A DNA stretch of 64,000 bases from Chelydra serpentina (lineage: Eukaryota; Chordata; Testudines; Chelydridae). The position numbers and the translations under genes were made by a program. The DNA is taken from positions 4,340,001 to 4,404,000 of the forward strand of contig JBAIAC010000026.1 of the NCBI GenBank assembly GCA_037349315.1. The letters run 5' to 3'. The notes beneath the pieces are model-generated. The model did not search any database. It was not told the origin of the DNA and saw only the letters and a program-made list of their open reading frames with translations. How positions within the stretch are numbered: the first letter of the stretch is position 1; every line of letters begins with the position of its first letter. This document shows positions 3,641-51,659 of the stretch, one piece after another.

Positions 3641-4339
3641 GGGTACGTCTACAGTACGAAATTATTTCAAAATTATTCTATTCAAATTTTCCGAAGCAAT
3701 TGTATACATTCGGTCTTGTGTCCCCCCACTAAAGCACGTGAATTCAGCGGAGTGTGTCCACAGTACCGAGGCTAGCATCGAATGTCAGAGCGGCGCACTG
3801 TGGGTAGCTATCCCACAGTTCCCACAGTCCCCACTGCCCATTGCAATTCTGGTTAAGCTCCCAGTGCATGATGGGGCAAAAACATTCTCGCAGGTGTTTC
3901 TGGGTGTGTGTCGTCAGTCGCTCCTCCCTCTGTGAAAGCTACAGCAGACAATTTTTTCGCACCATACTGCTTTCAGCAGATGGTGCACCGCTGCTCTCCT
4001 GCTACTATGAATCCACCTCGCATTTCCTCTAGTCTTCCTATGTAATCTCTATAATATCTACTCTCTCTCTTCCTCATCGACCGCTTCCGCTACGAACTCT
4101 GCTCGGCCAGCGTGAACCGAGCAGCACAGCTTCCACCGCCAACTCTGCTCTCCCGCTCTTGCCACACTACCAAGCCTCTCCGTGTTGTCTGCCCTGGGCT
4201 CCCGCCTCCGTGAAAGCTACAGGAGACAACCATTTCCCGCCTTTTTTCTGCTATTGAGAACCGAACAGCACCGCTTCTGCTGCCACTCTGCTCTCCTACG
4301 TTTCGCCCCCTTTTTCCAGGATTACCCATGCAGGCGCCA

Positions 4340-5585
4340 TAGTGCGGCAAGCACGGAGCCCGCTCAGATTTCTGCTGTTTTGATCTTTGTAAATACCTCG
4401 CGCATTATCCAGCAGTATGCGCAGTACCTGCAAAACCGGGCAAGGAAGCAACGACAGCGCGATTACGATACTGATGAGGACATGGACACAGACGTTCCTA
4501 GAAGCACGGCATGTGGCAATTGGGAGATCATGGTGGCGTTGGGCCAGGTTCATGCCATGGAACACCGATTTGGTCCAGGAAACAAGCACAGACTGGTGGG
4601 ACCACATAGTGTTGCAGGTATGGGATGATTCCCAGTGGCTGCGAAACTTTCGCACGCGTAGGGCCACTTTCATGGAACTTTTGACTTGCTGTCCCCTGCC
4701 CTGAAGCGCAAAGACACCAAAATGAGAGCAGCCCTCACAGTTGAGAAGTGAGTGGCCATAGCCCTGTGGAAGCTTGCAACGCCCGACAGCTACCGGTCAG
4801 TCGCAAATCAGTTTGGAATGGGCAAATCTACTGTGGGTGCTGCTGTACTGCAAGTAGCCAACACAATCATTGACCGGCTGCTATCAAGGATAGTGACTGT
4901 GGGAAATGTGCAGACCACTGTGGAAGGCTTTAATGCACTGGGGCTCCCTAACTGCGGCGGGGCGATAGATGCAATGCATATCCCTATCCTGGCCCTGGCA
5001 CACCGGGGCGGCCAGTACGTAAACCGCAAGGGGTACTCTTCCATGGTGCTGCAAGCACTGGTGGATCACAAGGGAAGTTTCACCGTGATCAACCTGGGAT
5101 CGCCGGGAAAGGTGCATGATGCTCGCATCTTCAGGAACTCTGGTCTGTTTGAACAGCTGGAGGAAGGGACTTGCTTCCCAGACCAGAAAATTACTGTTGG
5201 GGATGTTGAAATGCCTATAGTTATCCTCGGGGACCCAGCCTACCCCTTAATGCCGTGGCTCATGCAGCCATACACAGACACCCTGGACAGTAGTAAGGAG
5301 CAGTTCAACTATAGGCTGAGCAAGTGCAGAAAGGTGGTACAATGTGCTTTTGGACGTTTGAAAGCGCGCTGGCACAGTTTGCTGATTCGGTTAGATCTCA
5401 GCACAATTGTATTTGCTGCTTGTTGTGTGAGAGTAAGGGGGAGACGTTTATGGCGGGGTGGGAGGTTGAGGCAACTCGCCTGTCGGCCAATTTCAAACAG
5501 CCAGACAACAGGGCGATTAGAAGCGCACAGCAGAATGCGCTGCACATCAGAGAAGCTGTGTGACAGTTGTGTTTGTTTCTCTTGA
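4340..5585 (+). pseudogene. Harbinger A transposase (HARBI1-like), broken
   Basis: The best part (about 4752-5430) encodes a HARBI1-type DDE transposase: VAIALWKLATPDSYRSVANQ (HTH region), CGGAIDAMHIPIL with the first catalytic Asp, VILGDPAYPLMPWLM with the second Asp. At the third position the sequence reads RKVVQCAFGRLK where the relatives read VVECAFG, so the catalytic Glu is Gln. A stop precedes VAIALW, the N-terminal part is split over several frames, and the C-terminus after about 5410 is shifted. It cannot make active transposase. Confidence 0.85.
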
Positions 5586-5586
5586 A

Positions 5587-5686
<100 letters not shown>

Positions 5687-5835
5687 TGAAAGGAAATAAA
5701 GTCACAATTGTTTAAAAACCATTCTCTATTATTTGTTGCACAACACACAGAGAAATCAGAAGGTAGACCGGGGGAGGGTGGGAGGGTTGGGTTAGGGGGG
5801 TGGAGGAGGAGGGAAGGACAAGTCCAGAAACCAAA

Positions 5836-6305
5836 TCAAAATTTCGAATATGCCAGCCTTCTGCTGCTTGTGCAATCCTCTGGGGTTGAGTGTGTGGGTC
5901 CCCGTAGCCTCCCTCTCCGTGTTCTTGGGCGTCTGGGTGAGGAGGCTATGGAATTTGGGGAGGAGGGAAGGCGGTTATACAGGGGCTGCAGCGGCGGTCT
6001 GTGGTCTTGCTGCCTTTCCCGCATTAGATCCACCATACAGCAGAGCATGTCAGTTTGCTCCCCCATGAGCTTGAGCGTAGCATCCTGCCTGCTCTCATCG
6101 CGCGTGTCCCTCCTCTCTTCGTGTTCATTGAACGCTTTACGGGACTCCGCAATTGTTTGCCTCCACACATTCAGCTGGGCCCTATCATTGCTGGAGGACT
6201 GCATGAGCTCGGCGAACATGTCGTCCTGAGTTCATTTTTCCCACCTTCTAATCTGGACCAGCTTCTGGGGCGGAGTAGATAGGGGCCTTGTTGAAGCATT
6301 TGCAC
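5836..6305 (-). pseudogene. Harbinger A Myb/SANT-like partner, exon 2
   Basis: Begins after an acceptor CCCGCAG in the same phase as the exon in element C. A stop lies just before MFAELMQSSSNDRAQLNVWR; the downstream frame is open and helical, ending in a basic Ser/Pro-rich tail. It is homologous to exon 2 of elements B and C. Confidence 0.7.
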
Positions 6306-6812
6306 CTGCGGGAGGAGAAAAAGGGAAGGTAGTATTTTAAAAGATACATTTTAGAGAACAAAGGGGACACTCTTTCTCAGTGAAACAGGCAATTCATAGT
6401 ACACAGCACATGTTCTTTCTATACAAGGTCACATTTTGCCTCTTATACTGAAGTGCCTCCCACTTTGGTGTGAGTAAGCCATCGCATGCGGCCGGACAAC
6501 AGAATTCAGCTTGCAGGCAGCCATGGTAAGCCCTAAGGGCATGCGGGGTTCTGCTTCTTCCACATTCATTTCAATACTTTCAAACTACCGGGACACCTTT
6601 CCCATAGCAAGCAATGTCTGGTGGGTTTGCAATATAAAAGGAGAGCCTGCGGGCTCTCTGGGATGATCGCTTCACACAACACCCCCCACCCCCGGCGTGG
6701 CTCCAATGAAGCTCTGAGCAGGGATGAGCCCTTTAAACTAAATACGAACAGCCCAGCATGGCTGGGTTTCCCCCCACCCCCACCGCGTGGCTCCAATCAG
6801 GCTCTCACTCAC

Positions 6813-7300
6813 CAGAAGTGCCTTCTCCGGGGTCATGGTCCGGGAGCCCGCCTTGGGAGTGGGGGAGAGGCTATTGGCTCCAACATTAAGAATAGTTCCT
6901 GGCTAGGGGGGAAAACGGATTCCCCACTTGCTGCCTGTGCACTGTCCTTCTCCTCCTCCTCTTCGTCCTCCAATAACTCATCCTCCTCGCTCCGTGCAAC
7001 TCCCCCACTGCAGGTGTCCATGGACAGTGGTGGGGTAGTTGGTGGTGTCACCCCCCATAATTGCATGCAGCTCATGGTAGAAGCGGCATGTATGGGGCTG
7101 TGACCCAGAGAGCAGGTTCGCCTCCCTGGTTTTTGGTACGCTTGCCTGAGATCCTTGATTTTTGTATGACACTGCTCTGTGTCCCTGGAGTAGCCTCTTT
7201 CCGTCATGGCCCTGGAGACTTTAGCATACGTATTTGCACTTTTTTTGGAACGTAGTTCTGCCATAACAGATTCATCTCCTCAACATGCGATGAGATCCAG
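6813..7300 (-). pseudogene. Harbinger A Myb/SANT-like partner, exon 1, frameshifted
   Basis: Encodes MAELRSKKSANTYAKVSRAM then TERGYSRDTEQCHTKIKDLR, a Myb/SANT-like trihelix DNA-binding domain of the Harbinger accessory protein. Frameshifts near 7130 and 7050 move the C-terminal Glu-rich part into other frames. It ends at a donor (G|GTGAGTGAG, 6813/6812) equivalent to those in B and C. In Harbingers the partner protein binds the termini and helps nuclear import of the transposase. Confidence 0.75.
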
Positions 7301-8217
7301 TACCTCCCGTTTGGACCATGCTGGAGCTTGTCTGCAAATCCAGGACTGCGTGATCTCTTGTGATGGTGGACTCTGCATGGTCGCCTGTGATGGTGGACTG
7401 TGCTGATGGTCACCTGTGCTGATGAGCTCGCCATGGTGACCAAACAGGAAATGAAATTCAAAAGTTCCTGGGGCTTTTACTGCCTACCTGGCTAGTGCAT
7501 CGGAGTTGACAGTGTTGTCCAGAGCGGTCACAAGGGAGCATTCTGGGATAGCTCCCGGAGGCCAATAACGTCGAATTGCATCCACAGTACCTGTAACCCG
7601 GAACTGCGATCTCGGTTTTAGCGCTATTCCACTTGCCGAGGTGGAGTACAGAAACCAGATTAAAGAGCCCTTTAAAACGAAAAAAAACGGTTTGGTCGTG
7701 TGGACGGAATCAGTTTTATTTCGAATTACCTCGGCTAATTCCGAACTAATCGCGTACTGTAGACCAGGCCAAAGAGGGAAATGGAGGCAGAAAGTGCACG
7801 TTGCGAGCACATGTCAACTGTCTACTTGCTGCAGGCCAGCAGCACCCATTTCTTTTTGAGAGGGTCATACCAACACACTGGACGTTTATTACAAATCACA
7901 TCAATTTCAAGAGGCAAAGTTGCAGGCCTGAACATCAGGCTGTATTCCTAGAATGAGAACACTTACACACAAGTAAACAAGAATCAGAACACAGACTGCA
8001 TTCACCATGGGTTAGCTTGTTTTGCAGGCCATCACCTTCAGTAAGGCAATGGTGTGCTCTGGTTGTGTGGTGGACTAATGGTAGCGCTGTCATGCAACAA
8101 CAATTCCTGGGTTTCACATTTTATTATATAGGCCAGCAAGGACCAGGGAAGCAGGTGAATGCATGGAACTGGCCCTCGAGCAATAAAAATTAAGTTACAC
8201 AAGGGTTCCTTTTCTTA

Positions 8218-30922: not shown

Positions 30923-31914
30923 ATGGAGCCCGCTGCGATCATCGCCACAGTTATGGCCCTTGTCAACACCTCGCGCCTTATCGTCCACTTTATTCAGCAG
31001 CAGATGCTGAGAAATCGGGCGAGGAGGCTACGGCAGCGCGGTGAGGACAGTGACGATGAGAGGGGCACAGTCCTCTCTCAAAGCACGGGACCCTGCAACA
31101 TGGACATCATGGTGGCACTGGGTCATGTTGATGCTGTGGAACGGTGATTCTGGGCCCGGGAAACGAGCACAGACTGGTGGGACCGCATAGTGTTGCAGGT
31201 CTGGGATGAATCACAGTGGCTGTGAAACTTTCGAATGCGTAAGGGCACTTTCCTGGAACTTTGAAACGCCAGGACACCAGGATGTGAGCAGCCCTGACAG
31301 TCCAGAAGCGAGTGGCAATAGCCCTCTGGAAGCTTGCAACGGCAGACAGCTACCGATCAGTCGCGAATCAGTTTGGAGTGGGCAGATCTACTGTGGGGGT
31401 TGCTGTGATGCAAGTAGCCAACGCAATCGTGGAGCTGCTGCTGACAAAGGTAGTGACCCTGGGAAACGTGCAGGCGATAATAGATGGCTTCGCTGCGATG
31501 GGATTCCCAAACTGCGGTGGGGCTATAGACGGAACGCACATCCCTATCCTGGGACTGGATCACCAGGCCAGCCAGTACATTAACCGAAAGGGCTACTTTT
31601 CAATGGTGCTGCAAGCACTGGTGGATCATAAGGGACGTTTTACCAACATCAACGTCGGATGGCCGGGCAAGGTTCATGACGCTCGCGTTTTCAGGAACTC
31701 TGGTCTGTTTAGACGGCTACAGGAAGGTATTTACTTCCCGGACCAGAAAATTACTGTTGGGGATGTGGAGATGCCTGTAGTGATCCTTGGGGACCCAGCC
31801 TACCCGCTAATGCCCTGGCTCATGAAGCCATACACAGGCGCCCTGGACAGTGAAAAGGAGCTGTTCAACTACCGGCTGAGCAAGTGCAGAATGGTGGTGG
31901 AGTGTGCTTTCGGC
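30923..31914 (+). pseudogene. Harbinger B transposase, 3' deleted
   Basis: Starts MEPAAIIATVMALVNTSRLI like the intact relatives, but stops and frameshifts interrupt 31147-31312. From 31312 the frame is clean: VAIALWKLATADSYRSVANQ, CGGAIDGTHIPIL, VILGDPAYPLMPWLMKPYTG and RMVVECAFGG, keeping all three DDE residues. After the Glu the sequence jumps into antisense partner-gene sequence, so about 75 C-terminal residues are absent. Confidence 0.85.
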
Positions 31915-32239
31915 GGGGCTCTGTCCTCCTGCCTCCGGTCCTGCAGAACATCTACAAGGCACCGGAGCGTGTCCATTTGCTCTCGCATTAGCCCAAGCAG
32001 CGTCTCAGTCACCCGCCGGTCTTCCAGCCGCCACCTGCCCTCACGAGCTTCCGTCCTCTCCTCCCATTCGCTGGATGCTCGCGACATGTTCTCTCTCCAC
32101 TGACTCTGCTGTGCTGCCTCAGTGCGGGAGCAGTGCATGAGTTCGGAGAGCATCTCGTCCCGTGTTCGTTTCTTTCGCCGCCTTATCTGTGCCAGCCTTT
32201 GGGAGGGAGATGCCGGGGGAACCCGAGAGACACACGCAA
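31915..32239 (-). pseudogene. Harbinger B partner, exon 2, 3' deleted
   Basis: Begins after an acceptor CCCACAG in the same phase as elements A and C and encodes VACVSRVPPASPSQRLAQIR then RRKKRTRDEMLSELMHCSRT. A Glu/Arg-rich helical region follows, ending at DRAPP where it joins transposase sequence. The usual basic C-terminal tail is lost. Confidence 0.75.
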
Positions 32240-32643
32240 CTGTGGGATGAAAAAAAGGGAGTGAATTCTTTACAAAGATACATTTCCCAGAACAATGATT
32301 ATAGTCTTTCCCAGTGAACAAGACCATGCACACTACCTATCACATGTGCTTTCAGTACAAGGTCGCATTTTTATTCTTTCTATTGAGTGCCTGGGGTCTT
32401 GGTGTGCAGATCACACAAGCGGGGCCGGGCAACGGATTTGGCTAGCAGGCAGCCATGGTAAGCCGTAGACTTTTGGCTGCTGAAAGCTTAACTTACAGCA
32501 GCGCCCTCCTTTCCCGTTCCAAGCACAGCTCCTAGAGTTGGCCAGTTACTGCTGCGCTGTGCGTGTTAACGTGCAGCTGCAGAAACCACAGTAACCCCAG
32601 CCATCCCATTCTCTGGGATGGTCGGTTTAGCCTTCACCTCAAC

Positions 32644-33195
32644 GCGTGGCTGTTCCCGGGAACTGTCCCTGCATGCTGCCGGCAAACCGCCCAGCAGGAA
32701 CGTCCCCCCTCCTCGCCCCCTCCGCATGGCTGTTACCGGGAACGATCCCTGCATGCTGCCGGCGAATCACCCAGCATGAACTGTCCCCCTTCCCCCCGCA
32801 CCACGTGGCTGTTCCCGGGAACGATCCCTGCATGCTGTCGGCGAATCGCCCAGCATGAAATGTCCCCTTCCCCCCCCCACCGCGTGGCTGTTCCCGGGAA
32901 CGATCCCTGCATGCTGTCGGCGAATCGCCCAGCATGAAATGTCCCATTCCCCTCCCCACCGCGTGGCTGTTCCCGGGAACGATCCCTGCATGCTGTCGGC
33001 GAATCGCCCAGCATGAACTGTCCCCTTCCCCCCCCACCGCGTGGCTGTTCCCGGGAACGATCCCTGCATGCTGTCGGCGAATCGCCCAGCATGAACTGTC
33101 CCCTTCCCCCCCGACCGCGTGGCTGTTCCCGGAACGATCCCTGCATGCTGCCGGCGAACCGGCCAGTAGGAACGTTCCCCCTCCTCGCCCCCACC
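32644..33195. repeat. Minisatellite of 7 units of 78-80 bp inside Harbinger B
   Basis: Units begin at 32644, 32724, 32803, 32882, 32961, 33039 and 33117, each starting GCGTGGCTGTTCCCGGGAAC and including GATCCCTGCATGCTG, CGGCGAATCGCCCAGCATGA and a C-run. A truncated eighth start lies at 33196. The array lies between partner exon 2 and ORF3. Long ORFs across it are repeat artefacts. Confidence 0.95.
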
Positions 33196-33285
33196 GCGTG
33201 GCTGGAAACTGCCGGGTAGATTTTTTTAAAGGAACAGGCAAACAATCGCCATAAAAAAAATTCGCCTACTTCCAACCAGGTCACC

Positions 33286-33576
33286 ATGACTGATATCACT
33301 CTGATGAGGATTACGCAGACAGAGAAAGTCCGTATGCTGCGTGAATGCCAGCAAACACCGGGGCCGTATGCTGCCATGCTTTGTCAGGCAATGATACCGG
33401 AGTACCTGCTACTGGCCTGGCGCGGTAAAGTTTCCTACCATGGAGGACGCAGTAAGGCCGCTCTCCTGAGAAACCTTCTGCAAAGGCTTTCACAGTACCT
33501 CCAGGAGAGCTTCATGGAGATGTCCCAGGAGGATTTCTGCTCTATCCCCACACATGTTAACAGACTTTTCCAGTAG
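33286..33576 (+). CDS. Harbinger B ORF3 (nested small protein, unknown function)
   Basis: Intact 96-codon frame with an ATG in good context (GTCACCATGA), starting MTDITLMRITQTEKVRMLRE then CQQTPGPYAAMLCQAMIPEY and containing LLAWRGKVSYHG and QESFMEMSQEDFCSIPTHVN. No domain is recognised; it looks helical and soluble, without signal or membrane segments. It lies on the transposase strand inside the intron of the oppositely oriented partner gene. Homologues sit at the same place in elements C and E. A pyrimidine-rich CAG (33277-33279) lies just before the ATG, suggesting a spliced leader or an upstream exon. Function unknown; accessory transposition protein is the simplest guess. Confidence 0.7.
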   Translation: MTDITLMRITQTEKVRMLRECQQTPGPYAAMLCQAMIPEYLLLAWRGKVSYHGGRSKAALLRNLLQRLSQYLQESFMEMSQEDFCSIPTHVNRLFQ

Positions 33577-33686
33577 CTGCACTGGCCACGAATGCAGCTG
33601 AAGCGCCTAGGTCAAATTAATCATTAAAAACCCATTGCTAAAATACCATGTCTATTCGATTCAAAAGATATTTTTAAAACACTCAC

Positions 33687-34248
33687 CTACTGATCCTTCC
33701 CCTGATTCACGGTCCAGGTTACCGCCTTGGGACGGTTGGTAGGGGATCTCCATCAGGGTAATGAAGAGATCCTGGCTGTCGGGGAAATCAGCGTTGAAAG
33801 CGCTGTCGACTGCCTCGTCCTCCTCATCTCCTTCATCATCTTCCCCGTCCGCGAAAACCTCCGAGGAAGCGGCCGTTGATAAAACCCCATCGTCGGAGTC
33901 CACGGACAGGGGTGGGGTAGTGGTGGCGGCCCCACCTAGGATTGCATGTAGTGCCGCATAGAAACTACATGTCTGGGGCTGAGACCCGGAGCGCCCGTTG
34001 GACTCTTCAGTCTTCTGGTACGCTTGTCTCAGCTCCTTGATTTTCACGCGGCACTGCGTTGCATCCCGGCTGTATCCTCTGTCCGTCATGGCCTTGGATA
34101 TTTTTTCGTAAATTTTCGCATTCTGTTTTTTCGACCGTAGCTCTGATAGCACGGATTCATCTCCCCATACAGCTATCAGATCTAACACTTCCCAATCAGT
34201 CCATGCTGGAGCCCTCTTTCTATTCTGGGATTGCATGGTCACCTCTGC
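33687..34248 (-). CDS. Harbinger B Myb/SANT-like partner, exon 1, open
   Basis: Clean frame from an ATG near 34236: [40 protein letters not shown], then [30 protein letters not shown] and an acidic tail. This is a Myb/SANT-like (trihelix) DNA-binding domain followed by an acidic linker. It ends at donor G|GTGAGTG (33687/33686). The frame is open further upstream only because CR1 sequence has been joined there. No stops are present in this exon. Confidence 0.8.
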
Positions 34249-35650
34249 TGGAGAGCTCTGCATCAAGGAGAGATTCCACCACCTCCCTAGGTAACCCATT
34301 CCAGTGCTTCACCACCCTACTAGTGAAAAAGTTTTTCCTAATATCCAACCTAAACCTCCCCCTCTGCAACTTGAGACCATTACTCCTTGTTCTGTCATCT
34401 TCTACCACTGAGAACAGTCTAGATCCATCCTCTTTGGAACCCCCCTTCAGGTAGTTGAAAGCAGCTATCAAATCCTCCCTCATTCTTCTCTTCTGCAGGC
34501 TAAACAATCCCAGTTCCCTCAGCCTCTCTTCATAAGTCATGTGCTCCAGCCCCCTAATCATTTTTGTTGCCCTCCACTGGACTCTTTCCAATTTATCCAC
34601 ATCCTTCTTGCAGTGTGGGGCCCAAAACTGGACACAGTACTCCAAATGAGGCCTCACCAGTGCCAAATAGAGGGGAATAATCACGTCCCTCGATCTGCTG
34701 GAAATGCTCCTACTTATACAGCCCAAAATGCCGTTAGCCTTCTTGGCAACAAGGGCACACTGTTGACTCATATTCAGCTTTTCGTCCACTGTAACCCCTA
34801 GGTCCTTTTCTGCAGAACCGCTGCCCAGCCATTCGGTCCCTAGTCTATAGCAGTGCATGGGATTCTTCCGTTCTAAGTGCAGGACTCTGCACTTGTCCTT
34901 GTTGAACCTCATCAGATTTCTTTTGGCCCAATCCTCTAATTTGTCTAGGTCCCTCTGTATCCTATCCCTACCCTCCAGCGTATCAACCACTCCTCCCAGT
35001 TTAGTGTCATCTGCAAACTTGCTAAAGGTGCAGTCCACACCATCCTCCAGATCGTTGATGAAGATATTGAACAAAACCGGCCTCAGCACCAACCCTTGGG
35101 GCACTCCACTTGATACCGGCTGCCAACTAGACATGGAGCCATTGATCACTACCCGTTGAGCGCGACCATCCAGCCAGTTTTCTATCCACCTTACCGTCCA
35201 TTCATCCAGCCCATACTTCTTTAACTTGCTGGCAAGAACACTGTGGGAGACTGTATCAAAAGCTTTGCTAAAGTCAAGAAATAGCACATCCACTGCTTTC
35301 CCCTCATCCACAGAGCCAGTTATCTCATCATAGAAGGCAATTAGGTTAGTCAGGCATGACTTGCCCTTGGTGAATCCATGCTGACTGTTCCTGATCACTT
35401 TCCCCTCCTTTAAGTGGTTCAGAATTGATTCCTTGAGGACCTGTTCCATGATTTTTCCAGGGACTGAGGTGAGACTGACTGGCCTGTAGTTCCCCGGATC
35501 TTCCTTCTTCCCTTTTTTAAAGATGGGCACTACATTAGCTTTTTTCCAGTCATCCGGGACCTCCCCCGATTGCCATGATTTGTCAAAGATAATGGCCAAT
35601 GGCTCTGCAATCACATCGGCCAACTCCTTTAGCACCCTCAGATGCAGTGC
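34220..35650 (-). mobile_element. CR1 LINE with long intact reverse transcriptase frame
   Basis: One uninterrupted frame of about 470 codons covers the reverse-transcriptase part of CR1 ORF2: [60 protein letters not shown], the catalytic FADDTKLGG, and the thumb and C-terminus up to [16 protein letters not shown]. Both ends are lost: the 5' end stops near 35650, and the last codons and 3' UTR are replaced at about 34266 by Harbinger B sequence (the open frame runs on to 34220). Lack of decay over 1.4 kb indicates a young copy. The sequence [12 protein letters not shown], where SGVPQGSVLGPV is usual, may carry substitutions at the motif. Confidence 0.9.
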
Positions 35651-35654
35651 TAAA

Positions 35655-37235
35655 ATCTTTAAAATACAACCAGCTTTCCTCGACTCCTTGTATGTGTATC
35701 CTGGGGATCAATATCAAAGACTTCCAAGTGATGCCTAAGAAAGATGAAGTATAAGTTAAATGTAAAAAAATGTTTAATGCAATATTAGGAAGTAAGTTTT
35801 AAATGCTCACAAGACAGTAAGTTCCAAACTATAGAACTCATAACAGTTTATAACCTGAAACCTATATTTTTGCTGGAGCATTTACATTTTAACAATTATT
35901 GAGTTCATATTTGCTCCTCTTTTCCACCATATATTCTTCTCTACTTGTATTTACAAAATATTTATATTAAATTACATGTAGAGTATCTTATATGCACCCT
36001 AGAAGTGACTTGTTATTTTTGCTCATAATAAGAAATGCTAGATGTGTGACCAATTTTGCAAATGCCCTCTATTGATTTATGTAACTCTTATGCTGACCTG
36101 CTCTTTTTGTTTACTTGCATTTTCTTTGCTATTTAGTTTTATTTACATCCCAAATAAATATGTGATTGTTTACTAGCGTAAATTTACAGAACTTCAGCCT
36201 TAGGGTTAGGGTTAGGGTTAGGGTTAGTGGATGATATGAGAAAACTGGACTTTTACATGTAGTAAAAGCAGCCTTTATTAAGTTAAAATTGTGGGTATTG
36301 ACCTCTTGCCTCTACAGGATCTCCCTGTCTATCTGACGGTGGCTGAGAAGCATCCTGTGTAAAATCAACTAGCGTTTTTTGTAGCTCCATTTTTTAAACA
36401 TTACTGTGCTGACATTATATTGAGCAGAGTCTACCTTTTGGATCTGCACTGTAGTTCAGGATACAATTGTTATCACTTGTGGAGAGGATCTAGACACAAC
36501 TTTTCACTTGTGGGTTTCTTTAAATATATTTACATTTCACAGGGTATGGAGCATAGGATTTTCCATACCAAACCATGGCCAATCTAGTCTGAGATCCTGC
36601 TTCTGTCGGGAAGAAGAAGAAAACCCAGCCTGCACCTGGCCAATAGTCCAGTGGTGCATCTGAGAGAAAAATGCCTTCCTGACACTTGTGGCAGCTAGCT
36701 GATAGTGGCAATCCAATCTGAAGGCCCAACCCTGCAAAAATCTGAGCCTGTTCTCCAGAATGCTAAATTAACTTAATTTCCATTAAAGTCACTGGGAATT
36801 GAGGGCGCTCAGTGCATGGTTCAGGCTCATAGCATGGTTAGCTACAGGTGTGAGTATATGATTTTACATCTCTGGATGATTAGGATCCATTTTGATTAAA
36901 TGAAGCGGTAGATGCATTAAAATTGCAGTTCAATTATCTGATTGCTACAAATCCTTAAAGATGCAAGTTATTTCATGTTTTACGGCCTGTGATGTACTGG
37001 AGATGTACAGAAATGTTTCCAGTATCACACAGCTGCAGTCTGTGTCTATCTGCCGACAGTACCTCACCACTTTAACAATAATGTAGGATTTCAAAATATT
37101 GGAGACCTCTTTTCTTCCTGGCACCTACAAAAGCTTTGAGAACAGATTTTCTGAAGCAATGTATTTACTAGACTTTTAGGTTTCTAAAGTGTTCCCAGTT
37201 AAGAGTCTTAGGCTGCTTGTACATTTATGAACAAC
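35655..37235. other. TSNAXIP1 intron 1, apart from the telomeric repeat no feature seen
   Basis: AT-rich sequence. Nothing recognised. 38086-38850 and 38950-39857 are likewise empty apart from exon 2 between them. Confidence 0.5.
36200..36227. repeat. Short interstitial telomeric repeat
   Basis: Four perfect TTAGGG units plus TTAG, in otherwise AT-rich intron sequence. No subtelomeric context is visible. Confidence 0.95.
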
Positions 37236-40808: not shown

Positions 40809-41150
40809 TTAATACATGTTTAATAAGCAAGCGTGTTTAATGATTAATTCGCGGCCAGTACAGCTACAGCTACAGTTAACATGTCCGGGGATGGAGCGGA
40901 AATCCTCCAGAGACATCTCTAGAAAGCTCTCCTGGATGTACTCCCAAAGCCTTTGCAAAAGGTTTCTGGGGAGGGCAGTCTTATCCCGTGCTCCGTGGTA
41001 AGACACTCTACCACGCCAGGCCAGTAGCACGTAGTCTGGAATCATTGCATTGCAAAGCATGGCGGTGTATGGTCCCGGTGTTTGCTGGCATTCAAGCAAC
41101 ATCCGTTCTTCATCTCTCTGTGTTATCCTCAGAAGAGTGATATCATTCAT
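40809..41150 (-). CDS. Harbinger C ORF3 (nested small protein, unknown function)
   Basis: Frame from ATG at 41150 starting MNDITLLRITQRDEERMLLE then CQQTPGPYTAMLCNAMIPDY, with LLAWRGRVSYHG and QESFLEMSLEDFRSIPGHVN. It is about 65-70 percent identical to the element B protein over 90 residues by eye. The C-terminus runs past the usual stop because a short segment is deleted. It is antisense within the partner intron (40789-41691). The ATG is preceded by TTTCAACCAG, as in element B. Confidence 0.7.
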   Translation of the reverse strand: MNDITLLRITQRDEERMLLECQQTPGPYTAMLCNAMIPDYVLLAWRGRVSYHGARDKTALPRNLLQRLWEYIQESFLEMSLEDFRSIPGHVNCSCSCTGRELIIKHACLLNMY

Positions 41151-41691
41151 GGTCACCTGGTTGAAATAGGGGAATTTTATTAAGGTGGCATTCAGAGGGG
41201 TCCGTCCCTGCTGGGCTGTTTGCCTGTGGCTGAACGGAAATCTTCCCCGCTGTTACCCATGCGGTGGGGGGAGGGAGAACAGCAATCATCTTGGATGTGT
41301 GTGTGTGTGTGTGGGGGGTCGATTAGGTTCACGCTGCACGTTAACCTGAAAACCGCCGCCCCTCCCTTTTCAATTGCCAACCCGTTTTAAATGGCCAACC
41401 CAATGGCTGTTTGTTATGGGAAATTAGGGGGTTGCTGTTTGAAAACATTCCCACATGTTATGAAGGTTAAAGAAGCCAATAGACTGTGGCTTACCATGGC
41501 TGCCTGCAAGCCGAATTTTATTGCCCGCCGGCCCTGCTTGTGTGATCTCTCACACCAAACTGGCAGACCCTCAATATAACAGGCAAAGTGCAACCTTGGA
41601 CCAAATGCACATGTGCTATGTAATGTTTGGAGCATTGTTCTCTAATATGTGTCTTTTAAACTACTCCTCTCCCGTTTGTTTCCTCCCGCAG

Positions 41692-51055: not shown

Positions 51056-51344
51056 CTTGAAGGCAAAATGCAACACTTAACAGAGGCATCATTGTTTTAT
51101 GCCAGACAGAGCAATGATTCCCCCACACTTAAGGAGGGCACACACAGTCTCCAAAACAGCACAATTTTCCCGTCCCAAACAGAGCGCACAGAACCCATGG
51201 GAGCCCCAAAATGGTGAGTAAGCACAGGGTCAAGGGGGACTGATTGCTTCATGGATGTACTGTCCGGCGGGTTTCTGTGCCTTGGGGAGAGCCAACAACT
51301 GCAGGGGGAACCTACACTGAACACTGTCCCCACATTTTCCACAG

Positions 51345-51644
51345 GAGTTCGTCCTGGAAGATATCTCGCTGCTGAGGGTGACCGGGGAAGCAAGGGAGGG
51401 TCTTCTACTGCAATGCAGCTTCCGCCCTGACCCATATGCAGCTTGCCTGTGTGCAGCAATGGTCCCCCCGCCCCTCACGGCACAGTGGCGCGGACACGTT
51501 AGCCTGACTGGGACAAGGACCACGGCGGCTCTCCCAATAAACCTGCGCAAGCATTGCCCACGCTCTGGCTGAGACTTTCGAAGAGATCACCAATGCCGAT
51601 TTCCGCAATGTGATAGACCACATCAATGCGCTCTTCCGCATCTA
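51345..51644 (+). pseudogene. Harbinger E ORF3 homologue (one frameshift)
   Basis: After TTTTCCACAG the frame reads EFVLEDISLLRVTGEAREGL then CSFRPDPYAACLCAAMVPPP, with AQWRGHVSLTG. A shift near 51548 leads into AHALAETFEEITNADFRNVI and DHINALFRI before a stop. It aligns with B/C ORF3 along its length: DI.L.R.T, P.PYAA.LC.AM.P, WRG.VS, and .E.F.E......DF......H.N.LF. No in-frame ATG occurs before the next upstream stop (51318-51320), so an upstream exon or reinitiation would be needed. Confidence 0.65.
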
Positions 51645-51659
51645 GGCATGCATGCAGCC

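Follow-up and report, generated by a model that had tools for sequence, protein, structure and literature searches.

A predicted third gene, antisense within the Myb/SANT intron, in Harbinger transposons of the turtle Chelydra serpentina

Canonical PIF/Harbinger transposons are described as having a structure of two open reading frames (ORFs) (PMC9179366, PMC4482050). The question addressed here is whether a small frame, ORF3, found in three such elements (B, C and E) of the Chelydra serpentina genome represents a third gene. These elements lie within a stretch of 64,000 nucleotides (nt) of contig JBAIAC010000026.1 (assembly GCA_037349315.1, positions 4,340,001 to 4,404,000, forward strand), referred to below as the window; positions are given relative to its first letter. 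The comparisons presented below support ORF3 as a third, conserved coding exon of Harbinger, for which a separate start and splice sites are predicted and which is followed by a poly(A)-like signal in most copies. The explanation that we regard as probable is that this exon belongs, by a predicted phase-0 splice, to a third, two-exon antisense gene of B, C and E, whose product, a protein of ~100 residues likely of BEN type, would be a DNA-binding factor working in trans.

Identity of the elements and location of ORF3

Assignment to PIF/Harbinger was based on a DDE transposase, a Myb/SANT gene and, in several fetched copies, inverted repeats with a 3-base-pair (bp) target duplication (TWA). The transposases of B, C and E match that of L051 (tblastn), an E-type element in which the transposase, Myb and ORF3 frames are all open and whose first two products were identified as DDE_Tnp_4 (E 7.8e-36) and Myb_DNA-bind_4 (E 3.8e-19), respectively. 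Myb exons 1 and 2 were detected in all three elements, as well as in a fourth, element A (tblastn). A preliminary description of this DNA had placed ORF3 on the transposase strand, inside the intron of a Myb/SANT gene that runs in the opposite direction, which was borne out by tblastn; in element B, ORF3 lies between both Myb exons on the other strand. The features concerned are as follows (a slash marks a predicted exon boundary).

30923 to 31914, plus strand: transposase of element B, broken and 3'-deleted, with one stop in the aligned stretch (tblastn)
31914 to 32240, minus strand: Myb/SANT partner exon 2 of element B (tblastn)
33691 to 34236, minus strand: Myb/SANT partner exon 1 of element B (tblastn)
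33280 to 33576, plus strand: ORF3 exon 2 of element B, with acceptor CCAACCAG/GTCACC, coding up to the stop at 33574-33576
40809 to 41156, minus strand: ORF3 exon 2 of element C, with acceptor CAG/GTG at 41156 and native homology to ~40875
51345 to 51645, plus strand: ORF3 exon 2 of element E, with acceptor CCACAG/GAG and a frameshift after about codon 70

Sequence comparison of all three small proteins upheld the earlier claim that they are homologous. In element B, the frame described at 33286-33576 is open (translation) and comprises 96 codons counted from an internal ATG. In element C, the frame described at 41150-40809 is open, but its last ~20 residues are non-native, the end having been changed by a small deletion: all eight other C-family copies fetched retain the stretch GTTAACAGACTTT, which is missing from window C, and five of these eight read exactly the B-like end RLFQ-stop (by eye). 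In element E, the frame described at 51345-51644 holds for approximately the first 70 codons, beyond which it is frameshifted, with 2 nt missing relative to the intact copy L051; intact E-family ORF3 copies are present elsewhere in the genome. The preliminary observation was partly confirmed, with the corrections that the gene start is placed upstream, that the C and E copies are damaged and that element A lacks ORF3.

Abundance and selection

The Chelydra genome (2.28 Gb) was searched by tblastn with each of the three ORF3 proteins, yielding 13,632 (B), 15,209 (C) and 12,183 (E) first-look candidates. Most of these are unscored, and the three sets overlap. All 150 candidates that were scored per query proved significant. 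An in-frame stop was present in eight of the 150 scored B-type places, a rate biased by the selection of the best-scoring ones. About 120 of the 150 scored E-type places exhibited an identical score of 140.6 bits over residues 1-71 without a stop; this shared score is taken as the mark of a young E family. For further comparison, 16 B-type places of 10 kb and one E-type element, L051, were fetched.

Between the family-majority sequences of B and C, ORF3 was shown to contain 39 differences in 276 nt, distributed over the three codon positions as 10, 8 and 21. The corresponding ratio of non-synonymous to synonymous substitution rates (dN/dS) was 0.245, a value as low being reached in 0.2% of 2000 neutral simulations, in which transition bias was modelled and the CpG effect was not; the other five frames gave ratios of 0.38 to 3.5. 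These values indicate purifying selection on ORF3 in the divergence of the B and C families. When single copies were compared (L041 of the B type versus window C), ratios of 0.256 for ORF3, 0.286 for the transposase and 0.133 for Myb exon 1 were obtained; in this pair, constraint on ORF3 is similar to that on the transposase. The B-E comparison of ORF3 gave a dN/dS of 0.31, but with a dS of 1.9 it is saturated. At the DNA level, B and E can be aligned in the transposase and Myb exon 1 only, whereas protein comparison also brings ORF3 into alignment (40% over 99 codons, beginning at the acceptor), with the flanking intron remaining unaligned. Within-family ratios (B 0.16, C 0.55, E 0.71) were not used as a neutral control, being biased because the ORF3 copies had been picked by protein score.

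A B-C ratio well away from 1, together with homologues that are not stop-rich, supports the proposal of a third Harbinger gene made in the preliminary description. Damage to the window C and E copies, the lack of ORF3 in element A and the fact that ORF3 expression is itself a prediction would fit a relic that codes for nothing, or a frame that happens to be open within repetitive DNA. That explanation is disfavoured and regarded as extremely improbable in view of the in-frame dN/dS, the B-E similarity of the proteins next to an intron that cannot be aligned, and the stop-free score shared by most scored E-type places.

Predicted two-exon structure

The internal ATG was dropped as a family-wide start of ORF3, because E has no ATG at the position of that of B and C and because the junction of many gene models falls at the acceptor. 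The start at 33286 was replaced by a predicted start in an upstream exon whose last codon is ATG; joined to this exon, ORF3 of element B would encode a 99-amino-acid protein (MVTMTDITL...).

32455 to 32457, plus strand: predicted ORF3 start codon of element B, with which exon 1 ends, followed by donor GT at 32458-32459 (CCATG/GTAAGC, 32453-32463)
32458 to 33279, plus strand: intron of 822 nt predicted for ORF3 of element B, with a ~79-nt tandem repeat in about seven copies (Tandem Repeats Finder, TRF)
33623 to 33628, plus strand: poly(A)-like ATTAAA of element B, 46 nt past the ORF3 stop
41495 to 41497, minus strand: predicted ORF3 start codon of element C (CCATG/GTAAGC, 41499-41489)
51211 to 51213, plus strand: predicted ORF3 start codon of element E (AAAATG/GTGAG, 51208-51218)

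The predicted terminus of exon 1 coincides with the start codon in each case, reading GCAGCCATG/GTAAGC in window B and C and CCCAAAATG/GTGAGT in E. With the ATG at the very end of this exon, no ORF3 protein would be made from RNA that has not been spliced. In E, exon 2 is preceded by CCACATTTTCCACAG, and CCCAAAATG/GTGAGT sits 131 nt upstream; the predicted splice junction would join CCCAAAATG to GAGTTCGTC in phase 0 (M/EFVLEDISLL). This combined donor and ATG site is kept in six E copies (L051, L063-L066 and window E). For the B type, ATGGTAAG was found in window B and in 15 of the 16 fetched elements, the exception being L040, of which the 5' part is missing. The distance from the B donor/ATG site to exon 2 ranges from 349 to 828 nt, the intron varying in length in ~80-nt steps that correspond to the tandem repeat (32640-33200; L035-L050), and the acceptor is kept, in phase 0. 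Window A, B and C share the 20-mer GCAGGCAGCCATGGTAAGCC without a mismatch, within a region that is otherwise only loosely alignable, and many fetched B copies carry GCAGGCGGCC in its place.

Of 30 B copies, 29 have a poly(A)-like hexamer at most 110 nt past the stop. The hexamer occupies a comparable position in window C and seven of the eight other C copies, and it lies at 63 nt in L051, L063, L064 and L065, being absent from window E (four of five scored E copies; L066 was left out of this scoring, as its exon start differs by one base). A shared binding site within the intronic tandem repeat was considered and dropped: GCATGC (seven occurrences) and CCCGGG (five) recur in window B and not in L041, C or E.

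Gene models in databases

Junctions were read by eye from the sequences of 31 database relatives of ORF3, and all relatives with an organism name were derived from turtles (Chelonia, Caretta, Lepidochelys, Malaclemys, Chrysemys, Mauremys and Pangshura). In approximately 17 of the 31, homology to ORF3 starts at the acceptor, behind differing upstream sequence.

Acceptor-start relatives of the B/C type, six (by eye): P0003, P0015, P0016, P0018, P0029, P0032
Acceptor-start relatives of the E type, eleven (by eye): P0005, P0006, P0007, P0009, P0011, P0012, P0013, P0014, P0017, P0019, P0033

Model P0007 (101 residues, M/ELVLED...) has the form predicted for the E type, and P0028 reads through the intron end rather than joining at the acceptor. 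At least five models (P0006, P0014, P0018, P0029 and P0032; by eye) join a transposase-like N-terminus to ORF3, and P0018 was found by tblastn to match the transposase of element A. Such models would be expected if the ORF3 exon served chiefly as the 3' terminus of a transposase transcript produced by alternative splicing, the resulting fusion of transposase N-terminus and ORF3 acting as a repressor; a repressor produced by transposase-fusion splicing corresponds to a P-element-like scheme. However, the junctions within the transposase differ between models, several of which belong to a single annotation set (Chelonia UY3) and are possibly ab initio stitches, and the conserved partner of ORF3 is the ATG/GT donor inside the Myb intron. 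This alternative is considered very unlikely.

Two turtle host-gene models, P0015 (RAB3C isoform X3) and P0024 (glycine-transporter-like), end in ORF3, their last exon being, as annotated, an exonized transposon gene; the ORF3 exon here appears as a portable 3' terminal exon.

Relationship of the ORF3 protein to BEN domains

When the ORF3 profile was compared with a profile of BEN domains from the same genome, hhalign reported a score of 36.2 (P 2.8e-6) over 81 columns. None of 150 column shuffles reached this score, which had risen from 25.4 upon the addition of more BEN sequences. The better AlphaFold model of ORF3 (predicted local distance difference test score, pLDDT, 80.8) consists of five helices and no strands; the BEN domains of NACC1 and BANP have two N-terminal strands in addition to five helices. 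Five helices are described for BEN domains, and human BEN domains are stated to bind DNA sequence-specifically via their last helix (PMC11472053). The ORF3 protein resembles BEN proteins (BANP, BEND3, BEND6 and NACC1) in this 81-column profile similarity and in its five predicted helices, yet it differs from them in showing less than 20% identity, in falling below Pfam detection and in being a stand-alone, transposon-encoded domain. A BEN-type fold is the likely assignment, as judged from profile and model.

Structure searches back this assignment in part. With an earlier, low-confidence model, VIA-align placed BEN domains at ranks 1, 2, 5 and 6, with BANP first and BEND3 second. Several results weigh against a BEN fold: with the better model, BEN was found at rank 7, below the PNPase helical domain (first) and CUL5; no match of ORF3 to PF10523 (BEN) was obtained in Pfam; and single ORF3 sequences mostly scored at decoy level against BEN. 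These rankings, the lack of a Pfam match and the near-neutral charge of the ORF3 protein would fit a real third gene of another kind, encoding a lineage-specific helical accessory protein that contacts the transposase or the Myb protein. Against this stand the BEN profile match, its gain with more BEN sequences and the shuffling result, while pieces of Escherichia coli PNPase score no higher than 10, and such a non-BEN protein is considered unlikely. The PNPase helical domain was itself rejected as a candidate, there being no PF03726 match in the Chelydra genome. Weak Pfam matches to ORF3 (DUF416, UNC45-central, 2_5_RNA_ligase2, CDH and others) were likewise set aside, being below the cut-off where one was shown and otherwise given by E-value only. 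Sequence searches of solved structures with ORF3 returned nothing convincing, and the best match among viral structures had an E-value of 0.9.

Element A and copies without ORF3

A fourth Harbinger in the window, element A, was absent from the preliminary description and comprises the following features.

~3700 to 7600: element A
4356 to 5560, plus strand: transposase of element A, broken (tblastn)
6306 to 5839, minus strand: Myb exon 2 of element A (tblastn)
7348 to 6872, minus strand: Myb exon 1 of element A (tblastn)
6521 to 6531, plus strand: end of ORF3 exon 1 of element A, with ATG/GTAAGC retained though exon 2 is missing

No ORF3 exon 2 was found in the Myb intron of element A. At least 15 further genomic places span the ORF3-less stretch with 84-93% identity to a 211-bp probe (40 of 551 candidates scored). 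Since element A and similar copies lack ORF3, it is not needed in cis; either it is provided in trans or the element can do without it.

Proposed role and comparison with known systems

In the arrangement considered probable, the upstream ATG exon would be spliced in phase 0 to the ORF3 exon, antisense within the Myb/SANT intron; the protein would then bind the element's own DNA as a trans-acting accessory factor and may promote expression or transposition of the element beside the transposase and Myb protein. An unlikely, more specific version is that a vertebrate Harbinger lineage recruited a BEN gene as an anti-silencing factor, which, as a stand-alone protein made from spliced RNA only, would bind the element interior and keep the element unmethylated. 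It would then be an animal counterpart of plant Vandal proteins, described as transposon-encoded anti-silencing proteins that sequence-specifically regulate silencing of their own element (PMC12730594). ORF3 is likened to these by candidate mode of working; no sequence relation is claimed.

The Chelydra elements resemble canonical PIF/Harbinger in the DDE_Tnp_4 and Myb_DNA-bind_4 products of L051, in their inverted-repeat ends and in the 3-bp duplications of several copies, but differ in their predicted third gene, which lies within the Myb intron in antisense orientation. The restriction to two genes, a usual though not strictly defining feature of PIF/Harbinger, does not apply to them. Harbinger-lineage elements with added chromatin genes are described in the same source as TET-containing PHISTA of rust fungi and SET-containing HarbingerS of oomycetes (PMC12730594). 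All share a gene beyond the usual pair; however, the PHISTA and HarbingerS extras are given there as enzymes acting on DNA methylation or histones, and the PHISTA third proteins as having no Myb/SANT domain, whereas ORF3 encodes a small, BEN-like and apparently non-enzymatic protein, and the vertebrate element that carries it retains both the transposase and the Myb gene. In the literature covered, with Repbase and most subscription journals outside its scope, neither a third gene in a vertebrate Harbinger nor a transposon-linked BEN domain was found.

The usual two-gene picture of Harbinger looks incomplete, and the full element may be mis-stated. Given a third gene in no fewer than three families of this genome, reconstituted two-gene systems may miss a regulator, and if the ORF3 protein is indeed BEN, DNA transposons would join the carriers of this chromatin domain.

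Element ends and neighbouring features

Among the 16 B-type places, the transposase is mostly broken, with only L041 and L048 aligning over all 426 residues without a stop (tblastn); in L041, the transposase, Myb and ORF3 frames are open, apart from a single stop that interrupts Myb exon 1 in frame. The element ends are inverted repeats, flanked on both sides by TTA in L044, L047 and L048 (by eye) and by TCT in L051; several B copies lack an exact flank match and window B lacks the right end. An Rfam scan of the window from 30 to 53 kb yielded nothing reaching the gathering threshold. A long interspersed nuclear element (LINE) stretch at 34250-35650, which we take to be CR1-like, interrupts element B on its right side, immediately upstream of the Myb start. 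A short interstitial run of telomere-type TTAGGG repeats is located at 36200-36230 (by eye).
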